Shown here: in pieces, positions 17,135-24,174 of the stretch
Layout: every line of letters begins with the position of its first letter
How positions within the stretch are numbered: the first letter of the stretch is position 1
From: Synechococcus sp. CBW1002
Lineage (GTDB): Bacteria; Cyanobacteriota; Cyanobacteriia; PCC-6307; Cyanobiaceae
Direction of reading: 5' to 3'
NCBI RefSeq assembly: GCF_015840915.1
Contig: NZ_CP060398.1
Coordinates: 3,100,001 to 3,164,000 of the forward strand
Length of the DNA: 64,000 nt
The notes under the pieces: model-generated
The model's database searches: none
What the model saw: the letters and a program-made list of their open reading frames with translations, nothing else
What the model was told of the DNA's origin: nothing
Program-made: the position numbers and the translations under genes

Positions 17135-18814
17135 TTGCAACAGTGCAGCAACAGGCCATCCTCAGGAGCTGGATCCATCGACGCGGGGACCCGACTCCTG
17201 AGCGCACTCGGAGGGCTCGGCCTGTTCATGCTCGGCATGTCGGTGCTGACCGAGAACCTGCGGAACCTGGCTGGAGCCCAGCTGCGTACCGCCCTGCTGC
17301 GCTTCACCCGCACTCCCCTGAGCGGGGCGGTGACCGGTGCCGTTGCCACGGCGCTGCTGCAGTCGTCCAGCGCCACCACGGTCACCACCGTGGGATTTGT
17401 CGGGGCAGGGCTGATCCGCTTCCCCGATTCGCTCGGCATCATTTTCGGGGCAAACCTGGGCAGCACTGCCCTGGGCTGGTTGGTGGCCTTGCTGGGGATC
17501 CGCTGGTCTCTGGGTCGCGCCCTGCTTCCGCTGATTCTGGTGGGCGCGCTGCTGCGCATCTTCGGCAGGGGCCGCTGGGCGGTGATCGGCTTCGCCCTGG
17601 CGGGCTTTGGCCTTCTCTTCCTGGGGCTCGACGGCATCAAGGCCGCCATGGCTGGCCAGGGATTGCTGCTCGATCCGACGCGATTCGATGGCAGCCACTG
17701 GCTCGGCCGCCTGCAGCTGGTGGCCCTGGGTCTGGTCACCACTGTGATCACCCAGAGCTCCGCCGCCGGAGTGGCCAGCACCCTGATGGCCCTCGCCGCG
17801 GGGGGACTCGATCTGGGCCAGGCCGGAGCCCTGGTGGTGGGCATGGACGTGGGCTCCTCGGTCAGTGCGGTCGTGGCGGCCCTGGGCAGCAGCATCAGCG
17901 CCCGTCGCACCGGCATGGCTCACCTCTGCTTCAACCTGCTCAGTGCTCTGGTGGGGCTGATTCTGCTCAACCCCGTGGTCTGGTTCTGGCAGGAGATCTG
18001 GCCGCAGCGCCTGGCCGCCGAGCCGGAATTTGCCCTGACCAGTTTTCACAGCGGCTTCAATCTGCTGGGGGTGGCTCTCGCCCTGCCCTTCACGGGCGCC
18101 TTCGCGCACCTGATCCGCGCCCTGGTGCCATCGGGTCCCCGTTCCTGGGCCGATGCCCTGGACCAGGCTCCCCCCGACGATGCCCACCTGGCCATTGATC
18201 AGGCACGCCGCGCGGTCGAACAGGAGCTGCGCGAGCTGCTGGAGCTGCTGCGCCGGTCTCTGGGGGGAGCCGGTCCGCCGGCAGCTGCCCAGCCGCCACC
18301 GCGGCTGCCACACCAGCTCGCCAACCTCCAGGCTGATCTTGACCGCACCGAGACCTACCTCGATCAGATCCATCTCGATCATCTGGAACGCCACAGCGGT
18401 CAGCGCCTGATCCACCTGCTGCATGGGCTCGACCACCTGCAGCGGTTGCATGAGCGCTGCGAGGAGGAACCCGATCGCCTCGCCACCCTGATCGGCTCCA
18501 GCCAGCTGGCTGAAGAACGGCAGCAGTTTGCCGCTCTGCTCGACGCTGTGGTTCTCAGGGCCGTGCAGCACGACTGGGCTGGGATCTCCAGCGCCAGTGG
18601 AGCCCTCGTGCGCACTCTGGCAAGCCAGGAGCACCACTGCCGCCACCAGGTGATGCAGGAGGTGGCCCTGGGTCATCTCGATGTGGAGGAGGGCACGCGA
18701 GAGCTCGAGGCGATGCGTTGGCTGGAACGGGTCTGCCTCCACATCGAGCGGATTGGTCACCATCTCGACCATGCTGGGCCTGTTCCCCAGGACACCGGTC
18801 GAGCCATGACATGA
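17135..18814 (+). CDS. Na/Pi cotransporter family protein with C-terminal PhoU-like domain
   Basis: A 559-residue membrane protein. The two inverted-repeat signatures of the Na/Pi symporter family are visible: ATALLQSSSATT in the first half (about residue 70) and TTVITQSSAAG in the second (about residue 205), each with the conserved QSS. Eight or nine hydrophobic segments occupy residues ~15-330. The remaining ~220 residues are soluble and helical with many His, Leu and Glu, resembling the PhoU-like tail of bacterial NptA-type proteins. It probably imports or exports phosphate in exchange with sodium. The start is uncertain: the only long frame begins with TTG at 17135. Confidence 0.85.
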   Translation: MQQCSNRPSSGAGSIDAGTRLLSALGGLGLFMLGMSVLTENLRNLAGAQLRTALLRFTRTPLSGAVTGAVATALLQSSSATTVTTVGFVGAGLIRFPDSLGIIFGANLGSTALGWLVALLGIRWSLGRALLPLILVGALLRIFGRGRWAVIGFALAGFGLLFLGLDGIKAAMAGQGLLLDPTRFDGSHWLGRLQLVALGLVTTVITQSSAAGVASTLMALAAGGLDLGQAGALVVGMDVGSSVSAVVAALGSSISARRTGMAHLCFNLLSALVGLILLNPVVWFWQEIWPQRLAAEPEFALTSFHSGFNLLGVALALPFTGAFAHLIRALVPSGPRSWADALDQAPPDDAHLAIDQARRAVEQELRELLELLRRSLGGAGPPAAAQPPPRLPHQLANLQADLDRTETYLDQIHLDHLERHSGQRLIHLLHGLDHLQRLHERCEEEPDRLATLIGSSQLAEERQQFAALLDAVVLRAVQHDWAGISSASGALVRTLASQEHHCRHQVMQEVALGHLDVEEGTRELEAMRWLERVCLHIERIGHHLDHAGPVPQDTGRAMT

Positions 18815-20594: not shown

Positions 20595-21140
20595 TCAGAG
20601 AAGACGACCTCCCGGGGGACGGACTGCTTCATGAGGAACCATCAGGCCCCTAAGAAAGGTTTGACTGAAATCAACCCTTCGGGAAAAGCGACAGCCGGCA
20701 TAGGTGCCGCCAGCTTCCCTGTCCACCCACATCACCATAACTGCGGTGGGGATCACACTGTTGGTGCTGGGATGGGAAATCAACAGTGATCCCTTCTGAC
20801 TGGCATTCACTCTTTCGCCAGGAGGAAATAGCAGGCAGCATCCCGACCAGCTGATATCCCAGAGTCTGCCGTGGTGTTGCAGGTCATTCACGGTGAAGAT
20901 GGCACCGATCCAGATCGTGATGGCCGGCAGAAGAAATCTCTCTTCCCGCCTTGGCTGCTCGACCATAGATGTGGCTGTGATCCGACGGTATTCAGCCAGA
21001 GCTTCCCACATTTCAGCAGGCAGCGCCCCCCAGCGGTTCTGGGAGTCTGCGATGCCTGCTGCAAACGGCTCCGGCAAAACATCAGCCCCCTGCCAGGGGC
21101 TCGCTCTACGGGCGTCGTCGCTGTTCGCCGTACTACACAC
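20595..21140 (-). CDS. PilZ-domain protein (putative c-di-GMP receptor)
   Basis: Contains a PilZ domain with both diagnostic motifs: RxxxR as RREER (residues 64-68 of the longest frame) and DxSxxG as DISWSG (95-100). These are the residues that bind cyclic di-GMP in this family. The rest is the usual six-stranded barrel (TAVMVMWVD, GTYAGCRFS). The longest start is GTG 21140; ATG at 21011 would remove the first 43 residues, which look less ordered. The gene is divergent from a DUF4079 gene and a BcsA-like glycosyltransferase, so it may regulate polysaccharide synthesis. That link rests on position only. Confidence 0.75.
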   Translation of the reverse strand: MCSTANSDDARRASPWQGADVLPEPFAAGIADSQNRWGALPAEMWEALAEYRRITATSMVEQPRREERFLLPAITIWIGAIFTVNDLQHHGRLWDISWSGCCLLFPPGERVNASQKGSLLISHPSTNSVIPTAVMVMWVDREAGGTYAGCRFSRRVDFSQTFLRGLMVPHEAVRPPGGRLL

Positions 21141-21256
21141 CGTCCGGGGGCGGTGGGCCAGGGCTGGACCAGAGCGCAGGAGTCCTCCCTCAGGAAAATC
21201 CGTTGCTGAAACTCAGCGGTAATTCCCCTACGGTTTTCACGAGTCAAGCTTCCACC

Positions 21257-21964
21257 ATGCAGACGATCGACTGGTTGTGGCTGATACATCCCGTGCTGGC
21301 TGTGGTGGTGGTCTATCCACTGCTCGGCATCGTGCTCCGTCTGGCTCAGCAGACCCGCCAGCGGCGCCTCAAGCAGGCCAAGACCCCTCCCACCAGTGGC
21401 CGAGACCATGCCGATCTGGGCCGTTGGCTGGCCACAACGGTGGTGGCAATCGAGCTGGTGGCTCTCAGCGTGGTGATCGCGACAAAGCATCCCCTCTCCG
21501 CCTTCGAAGGCGGCGCAGGACGCCTGGTCCTGCTCGTGCTGGTGCTGCTCGGTACAACTGCTGCCCTCGTGCTGCTCTGGCGGGCCAAGGCCGCTCCCTA
21601 CAGGGCCACGTTTGCCCTGTTGTGCTGGATCGGCGTCATCGGCCTGGGTATGCAGCCTGAGGTCTGGCGACTCAGCGACAATCCACTTGACCCGGCCTTC
21701 TGGCAATCCCACTTCTGGGGAGGGGTCGGACTCACCGGCCTGCTGCTCTTCGGTGTCGCGGCACGCCCCGAGATTCTTCGCAGCCTCCCCTGGCGTCGCC
21801 TTCACCTGACTGCCAGTGCCCTGGCGGGTCTGCTGCTTCTTGCCCAGGGCATCAGTGGGCCGCGCGATCTGCTGGAAATCCCCCTGAACTGGCAGAAACC
21901 CGCCATTGCGACCTGCGACTTTGTTCGTCAGGTCTGCCCGCCGCTCCAGCCGCCAGCGGGTTGA
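21257..21964 (+). CDS. DUF4079-type integral membrane protein
   Basis: 235 residues with about six hydrophobic segments. The first (IHPVLAVVVVYPLLGIVLRLA) carries a His near the membrane, and further histidines occur at KHPLSAF, QSHFWGGVGLTGL and RLHLTAS. This layout, a cytochrome b561/ferric reductase-like bundle, is what I associate with cyanobacterial DUF4079 proteins; haem binding is inference. ATG 21257 is chosen because it starts directly at the first helix. The stop codon overlaps the ATG of the glycosyltransferase (TGATG at 21962-21966), implying translational coupling, so a shared task is plausible. Confidence 0.7.
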   Translation: MQTIDWLWLIHPVLAVVVVYPLLGIVLRLAQQTRQRRLKQAKTPPTSGRDHADLGRWLATTVVAIELVALSVVIATKHPLSAFEGGAGRLVLLVLVLLGTTAALVLLWRAKAAPYRATFALLCWIGVIGLGMQPEVWRLSDNPLDPAFWQSHFWGGVGLTGLLLFGVAARPEILRSLPWRRLHLTASALAGLLLLAQGISGPRDLLEIPLNWQKPAIATCDFVRQVCPPLQPPAG

Positions 21965-24174
21965 TGCGTCTTCCCTGGGCTGTGGCGCTGCTCACCGTTC
22001 TGGCAGCGCGTTATCTGATCTGGCGTTGCGGCAGCACGCTCAACCTCAGTTCACCCCTGTCAACTGGCCTGAGCCTTCTGCTGCTGGCGGCTGAGTTGCT
22101 GCTGCTGGCCACCACCTTCCTGCAGCTCTGGTTCACCCTGATACCCCCTCCTCCTGTGACGGCCACTGTGGCCGCCGCCGCCGCCCGGCTGGAAGGCCGG
22201 ATGACCCAGCATGCCCTTGCTTCTGCGGCTGACCGTCGGGACACCCCTGTCGCTGTTCCATGCATCCAGACAGCGAGGCAAACTGAGAGCGACCCACCGT
22301 CCGTACTGCATCTTTGCGATGAGGAGTCGGCGGTTGCTTCCCTCTCGGCAAACCCTCTGCTCAGGGTCGATGTGTTCGTCCCCACCTATGGCGAGCCGCT
22401 TGGCCTGGTGGAACGCTGCCTGCGCGGTTGTCTGGCGATGGACTATCCCATCAAGACCGTTTGGTTGCTCGATGACGCTGCCTGCCCTGAGCTGGAGCTG
22501 CTCTGCCGCCGGCTGGGATGACTCTACCTGAGTCGTGGGGAACGGCTCCATGCCAAGGCCGGCAACCTGAACCATGCCCTTCTGCACAGCAGTGGTGACC
22601 TCGTGGCTGTCTTCGATGCCGACGTGGTTCCACTGAATGGATTCCTTCGGCGCACCGTAGGGCTGTTCGATGACTCCAGCGTTGGGTTTGTGCAGACCCC
22701 GCAGAGTTACATGAATGCTGATCCCGTGGTACGCAATGCGTCCATGGAGCGATGGCTGCTGCCTGACGAGGAAACTTTCTATCGCTGGATCGAACCCACT
22801 CGGCAGGCCCTCGGTGCCGTGGTCTGTGCCGGCACATCCTTCGTGATGCGCCGCAGCGCCCTTGAGCAGGTGGGCGGCTTCGTTACCGCCACATCTTCGG
22901 AAGATCTGGCCACGGGAATCCAGATTGCAGCCGCCGGATACCGCAACATTTTCGTGGCCGAAAAGCTCAGCGCCGGCCTGGCTCCGCTCACCGCAGCCGC
23001 CATGACTCGCCAGCGCTGCCGCTGGGCCAGCGGCACGTTGCAGATCCTGCGCACCGGAGCCAGCCCCTTCCGCATCCGTGGCCTGACCCCACTGCAGCGC
23101 CTGGCCTATCTCGAGGGGATCCTGCACTGGTTCAATGTGCTGCCTCAGCTGCTGCTGTTGCTGTTTCCGCTGAGCCTTGGCTTGCTCGGGGTGGCACCAA
23201 TCCGTCTCACTGCCGCCGGCCTGTTCAGTGAAGCGCTGCCTTTCTTTCTGGCGCAAATGCTTCTCAGCCGCTGGTTGAGTGGCCATGCGCGCACGGCCCT
23301 GTTGCCTGAGCTGTACCGCTGGTTGTTTGTCGTCCCTCTGGCTGGCGCGGTGCTGTCCACCCTGTTCGGGCGCCCCCTTCGCTTTCATGTGACGCCCAAG
23401 CAGCGTCCCTGGGGCCGCCGGCTTGGACCGTCACGACAACTGCTGCTCCCCTTGTTGTTTTTGCTCAGCCTCCAGCTGATCGCTTTGGTGCATCTGTTGA
23501 ACGGGCCCCTCACCGGCCCAGAGCTCGCGGCTCTGGATCCGCTTCCGCCCGCCACCAGGGTTGTGACCATGGTCTGGGCCTGCACGAACCTGCTGCTCCT
23601 GCTGCTGGCGGTGCGCTGCTGCTGGGATCGCAGCGCCGACAGCGATCTCCCCTGGTTCCGGCTCGAGCCGAAGCCGCTGATCCGGTTGACCCCGATCCAG
23701 GAGGGGGCTCCGCTGCCACCGCTGAGCCTGAGCGTGATGGCGATCAGTGAAGAGGGGATCGAGTTGGAGGCCCCTGCTCAGTCATCGCCGGCTGCAGAAT
23801 CCTGTATCACGTCGTCAGACGTTGTCTGGACCGTGGAGGGCTTGCCCGGTCTGGACTCAGTGCCCCTGGAGCTTCTGGAGTCGCCGCTGCTCATCTCCTC
23901 GCTGGGCGACCGGCGGCGGGATGGCTGGCGCCTGGCGGGGCGCTGGGGAGCACTGTCGCCGCAGCAGCGTGACCAGCTGCAGACGCTTCTGTACCGCCGT
24001 GATCGGCTCTGGCCGCAGCGCACGGCGCCCTTCGAGCTGCTGGCCCTGCCGGCGGTGCTGCGGTTGCTGCTGCGCCCCTGCGGGCCCGACACCTGGTTTC
24101 AGCGCAGCCTGATCCCCCAGCGGAGCTGGGTTGAAGACTTGCCAGGCACGGCAAGGGATCGCAGAGTTTCCTGA
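21964..24174 (+). pseudogene. BcsA/CelA-like GT2 glycosyltransferase interrupted by an in-frame TGA
   Basis: Reads as one 736-residue protein if the TGA at 22519-22521 (codon 186) is ignored; the frame is the same on both sides, with no indel. The first part (21964-22521) has two TM helices and the GT2 start DVFVPTYGEPLGLVERCL with the DD of VWLLDDA. After the stop come AKAGNLNHAL, VFDADVVP (second Asp), SSEDLATGIQ and the Q-x-x-R-W motif QRCRW near codon 350. Five or six further helices follow, then a ~200-residue soluble C-terminus with a degenerate PilZ-like ISEEGIELE. In relatives the interrupted site reads LG-C/x-YLSR. A downstream piece could start at GTG 22603, but it would lack the first Asp. 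Family members polymerise cellulose-like glucans with UDP-glucose. Confidence 0.85.

Follow-up and report, generated by a model that had tools for sequence, protein, structure and literature searches.

The window examined here comprises 64,000 nucleotides (positions 3,100,001-3,164,000) of the genome of Synechococcus sp. CBW1002, a complete, single-contig sequence of 3,854,122 bases (99.74% complete) of the Synechococcus/Cyanobium kind. It contains, directly downstream of a DUF4079 gene, a gene for a family-2 glycosyltransferase (GT2) resembling the BcsA/CelA cellulose synthases, which is interrupted by a premature TGA at codon 186 (Table 1). In the reading frame extending from the ATG at 21964 to the natural TGA stop at 24172-24174, this codon is the sole internal stop, and there is neither an indel nor a change of frame. 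The segment downstream of the stop suffices by itself to match models for family-2 glycosyltransferases and for cellulose synthases, and the presence of CelA-like homology on both sides of the TGA in one frame indicates that this is an interrupted frame and not a chance split of an ORF. The first-pass annotation of this DNA, which had reported two halves in the same frame with no indel, was thus borne out, both by the reading of the frame and by the gapless alignment across the site with the homologue of Synechococcus sp. CS-1328, which carries TGC at this position and is intact over its length.

Table 1. Features of the interrupted gene and its surroundings (positions within the window)
Feature	Position	Strand	Remarks
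Na/Pi-cotransporter gene	17135-18814	+	
PilZ-domain gene	20595-21140	-	free-standing; divergently upstream of the DUF4079-glycosyltransferase pair
DUF4079 gene	21203-21964	+	directly upstream; its stop overlaps the glycosyltransferase ATG (TGATG)
BcsA/CelA-like family-2 glycosyltransferase gene, interrupted	21964-24174	+	736 codons from ATG to natural stop; assigned by homology; CS-1328 ortholog intact
VDVFVPTYGEP	22366-22398	+	residues 135-145; start of GT-A domain; upstream of stop
Asp-Asp motif	22471-22476	+	residues 170-171; upstream of stop; from sequence
Premature in-frame TGA	22519-22521	+	codon 186; replaces conserved Cys codon
CTC (Leu187)	22522-22524	+	second non-synonymous difference; adjoins the stop
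Longest downstream ORF with a start codon	22603-24174	+	GTG start, 523 aa; product would lack N-terminal membrane segment and first part of catalytic domain
DxD motif (DAD)	22615-22623	+	residues 218-220; downstream of stop
TSSED, counterpart of TED motif	22891-22905	+	SED at residues 312-314; downstream of stop
QxxRW motif (QRCRW)	23011-23025	+	residues 350-354; downstream of stop

Type of enzyme encoded

In the protein searches the stop was read as X and the full-length product was used. The best match of known structure, by sequence, was BcsA (residues 134-550, E about 5e-56), and the CelA model TIGR03030 was matched with an E value of 1.3e-95, with a score of 320.9 bits that lies below the equivalog cut-off of 699.1. 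The first-pass annotation had considered all GT2 motifs intact on both sides of the stop. This holds for the Asp-Asp, DxD and QxxRW motifs, while the TED-type motif reads SED instead of TED. Apart from the stop, the gene therefore has the GT-A motifs and the cellulose synthase sequence match of processive GT2 enzymes of the BcsA/CelA type. It falls short of a true UDP-forming cellulose synthase as defined by the TIGR03030 equivalog, because of the score below cut-off and of the absence of the C-terminal PilZ domain of BcsA, for which no Pfam match was obtained in the glycosyltransferase even at E<=5. Judged from these sequence matches, the product is a BcsA/CelA-like processive glycosyltransferase and not a proven cellulose synthase.

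The comparison with known systems leads to the same picture. With BcsA/CelA (TIGR03030; PDB 7lby, 4hg6) the gene shares an N-terminal hydrophobic segment, a GT-A domain with DD, DxD, S/TED and QxxRW, and hydrophobic segments afterwards, but, besides the low score, the missing PilZ domain and the stop, it has no adjoining bcs/xcs operon. The cyanobacterial cellulose synthase XcsA (Tll0007, Synpcc7942_1398; PMC12430437) is of the same enzyme type and comes from the same phylum, but carries a PilZ domain, of which no C-terminal counterpart is recognisable in the window gene. The neighbours differ too, being DUF4079, pirin, malic enzyme and glutamine synthetase III genes in the window instead of the HlyD and endoglucanase genes of the xcs system, and a GH8 endoglucanase was not found in the genome.

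Codon 186 in relatives and the age of the stop

Cys (TGC or TGT) occupies the codon-186 column in 32 of the 33 non-redundant family relatives, the remaining one having Ser. In the alignment with E. coli BcsA this place is taken by Val, so that conservation of the Cys holds within this cyanobacterial group but does not extend across the wider family. At codon 187, Arg is found in CS-1328 and in 28 of the 33 relatives; Leu occurs in two, which indicates that the Leu of the window is tolerated. The site reads LG*LYLSR in the window, with the stop replacing Cys and Leu replacing Arg. It had been proposed that the stop sits where relatives have a residue between LG and YLSR; the place is correct, but relatives carry two residues before the Y, usually Cys-Arg. 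Other internal stops were absent from the family matches examined. A recurrent stop in the family was considered and discarded, as the stops noted in three distant homologues fall at the C-terminus of the protein.

A break also occurs in the homologue of Synechococcus sp. GFB01, where one G has dropped out of a G run at residue 184/185 (L049:3551-3565) and the frame changes a second time near residues 460-490 (L049:4377-4465). Since this genome is an Ion Torrent draft, these frame breaks are probably homopolymer errors.

CS-1328 was the only same-genus comparison genome. The dN/dS ratio against it is 0.16-0.19 for the whole gene and 0.12-0.15 downstream of the stop, values that indicate purifying selection. 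When changes were polarised with outgroups (parsimony counts), 19 amino-acid and 60 synonymous changes were assigned to the window lineage, against 14 and 27 in the CS-1328 lineage. The resulting rate ratio of 0.61 (95% interval 0.27-1.40, Fisher p 0.28) shows no excess of amino-acid changes in the window lineage, that is, no relaxed selection by this comparison. If amino-acid changes build up about six times faster in a free-running gene (1/0.16), the gene could, at the upper limit of 1.40, have been unconstrained for at most roughly 8% of the time of the window lineage since the split, this being a rough estimate. Three changes at conserved columns are exclusive to the window (R174C, C186*, P238S) and none to CS-1328, numbers that are too few as proof of decay.

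Absence of relaxation leaves three readings: a young stop, a gene that continues to function and to yield its protein, or an erroneous base. Such an absence is what would be expected of a very recent nonsense pseudogene, and the undecayed state of the rest of the gene fits sequencing error or continued expression equally well. Among the four options that the first-pass annotation had left open, a very recent nonsense mutation is the best supported, given the intact relatives and the lack of relaxation. As in other single-stop bacterial pseudogenes, one substitution has created a stop in an otherwise conserved gene, the ortholog is intact in a close relative and the stop removes essential motifs; the only peculiarity is that the substitution hit a conserved Cys codon. 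We thus consider it probable that a recent nonsense mutation has inactivated, in this strain, a cellulose-synthase-like glycosyltransferase of envelope or exopolysaccharide synthesis.

The alternative that deserves most weight is an assembly or base-call error, in which case the organism would have a sense codon as its relatives do and an intact gene. A single base separates TGA from the conserved codon, selection is not relaxed elsewhere in the gene, and there is a precedent in the published PCC 6301 genome, where apparent nonsense mutations in essential genes vanished on resequencing (PMC9239245). Against this stands the quality of the sequence, which is complete and in one contig, as well as the outcome of a survey of broken genes. 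In this survey, 444 kb of the window's genome were compared with a 431-kb contig of CS-1328, with 252 accepted ORF matches in one direction and 245 in the other, and 15 and 17 ORFs, respectively, were flagged for an internal stop. For 13 of the 15 ORFs flagged in the window's genome, the comparison was extended to the segments on either side of the stop. Other than in the glycosyltransferase gene, the pre-stop segment was short and mostly devoid of third-position bias, as expected of stop-to-stop frames running into non-coding or antisense sequence. In two flagged ORFs checked against Pfam the recognised domain begins well after the stop, and one short ORF had no Pfam match. Among the flagged ORFs compared, the glycosyltransferase gene is the only one in which long stretches of conserved coding sequence both precede and follow the stop. 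Since the 444 kb, with about 250 ORF pairs, contain no further gene that a stop has clearly broken, the assembly does not appear error-ridden, which favours a real mutation. Moreover, in finished consensus sequences substitution errors are rarer than indels. An error at this base is accordingly regarded as unlikely, albeit with an appreciable residual chance.

Decoding, switching and local mutation at the TGA

The premature stop might instead be read through. In the general form of this explanation, the UGA followed by C would act as a weak terminator at which a near-cognate tRNA-Trp or tRNA-Cys inserts a residue, yielding some full-length enzyme. The fourth base is indeed C, a context documented as inefficient for UGA termination in bacteria (PMC5289835), and the downstream half of the gene is conserved. 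However, a recent mutation accounts for this conservation equally well, the stop is absent from every relative examined, which argues against a conserved readthrough site, and the RNA fold around it is not unusual when compared with dinucleotide-preserving shuffles (z -1.1 and +0.3). Leaky or regulated readthrough is for these reasons very improbable. If anything, less credence still can be given to its functional version, where the leaky UGA-C at codon 186 would provide low, tunable amounts of a full-length polysaccharide synthase via tRNA-Trp or tRNA-Cys. Some unspecific, low-level readthrough may occur at UGA-C.

Readthrough had been raised as an option in the first-pass annotation; its specific forms considered here, selenocysteine insertion and a suppressor tRNA, gained no support. 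An in-frame UGA aligned with the Cys of homologues is the classic signature of a selenoprotein (PMC9312934), and this is exactly the pairing observed here, so that the codon might be thought to be decoded as selenocysteine. Yet SelA has no match in the genome, and the best SelB match reaches 193 bits against a cut-off of 242; each of the 14 control genomes also gave SelB matches of this sub-cut-off kind, which general elongation factors would be expected to produce. The best tRNA-Sec candidate scores 45.2 bits, short of the cut-off of 47, and ARAGORN identifies the candidate loci as ordinary tRNAs for Ser, Leu, Tyr, Gly, Trp and His. Published surveys did not find selenocysteine decoding in cyanobacteria (PMC1794560, PMC9312934). 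Furthermore, the Val of E. coli BcsA and the Ser of one relative make a redox-active role of the position unlikely. Selenocysteine was therefore rejected, its probability being negligible, and so was a suppressor tRNA, since no UCA anticodon occurs among the tRNAs scanned. As to a SECIS stem-loop, which would lie just downstream of the UGA, general RNA folding showed a short hairpin that takes in the UGA itself, the fold being no better than that of shuffled sequences. The result is mostly a clean negative: a UGA at a conserved Cys resembles a selenoprotein while the machinery is absent, and sequence context alone would mislead. The broken gene looks like the outcome of an ordinary mutation, or less likely of a sequencing error, and not like a special decoding trick.

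Genes for surface polysaccharides are often phase-variable in bacteria, and the stop could in principle represent the off phase of a reversible on/off state, as the first-pass annotation had contemplated. This idea found nothing to sustain it, because the TGA arises from a substituted base, neither a homopolymer nor a tandem repeat is present there, the genome has no second copy of the site even with 3 mismatches allowed, and the gene is single-copy, with no paralogue match at E<=0.001. Phase variation is accordingly extremely improbable.

The stop lies inside a perfect short inverted repeat (GACTC-tacct-GAGTC, 22517-22535), although such arms are equally common in other parts of the gene, and CS-1328 differs from the window at codon 186 as well as at codon 187. 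Mutation templated by a quasipalindrome was dismissed, as close pairs of differences in repeat arms numbered 18 of 210 for the window and 18 for CS-1328, against about 10% of random spans, which gives no signal. The same applies to a local mutation cluster, the 7 differences in 8 codons being a level reached by about 8-14% of the stretches within the gene and hence not unusual. An upstream near-copy (GATGACGCTGCCTG at 22471, 12 of 14 positions identical to 22517-22530) was taken as chance.

Likely consequences of the stop and the gene neighbourhood

Under the preferred explanation, a recent nonsense mutation, the window lineage would have inherited an intact membrane GT2 of the cellulose synthase type, in which a single base change in the third position of the Cys186 codon, with the direction read from the relatives, produced the TGA. 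Translation would end after 185 residues, and the resulting fragment would comprise the N-terminal hydrophobic segment together with the initial portion of the GT-A domain. As this fragment lacks DxD, S/TED and QxxRW, whose functions are established, it would be expected to have no enzyme activity. The downstream piece could be made by an internal restart only and would be without the portion of the catalytic domain that is encoded ahead of the stop. Loss of a presumably glucan-type envelope polymer or exopolysaccharide would be the likely outcome, and planktonic growth in culture is a plausible candidate reason for its toleration; as a precedent, genome comparisons among S. elongatus strains support the view that domestication in the laboratory has favoured planktonic cells that do not form biofilms (PMC9239245). 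Should the TGA be genuine, a cellulose-like polymer of the envelope has probably disappeared from this strain while its nearest relative retains the capacity to produce it, and together with CS-1328 the strain offers a convenient natural comparison for the role of this polymer in picocyanobacteria.

The pairing of the DUF4079 and glycosyltransferase genes is kept in CS-1328 and GFB01 and was not found in the other 13 loci checked. The free-standing PilZ-domain gene that precedes the pair is also kept in CS-1328 and encodes a possible c-di-GMP receptor. As no such domain was detected in the glycosyltransferase itself, this separate protein may be its regulator. For the Na/Pi-cotransporter gene, farther upstream, the alignment with CS-1328 is confined to the C-terminal part (59% identity), and the gene is apparently truncated or replaced there.
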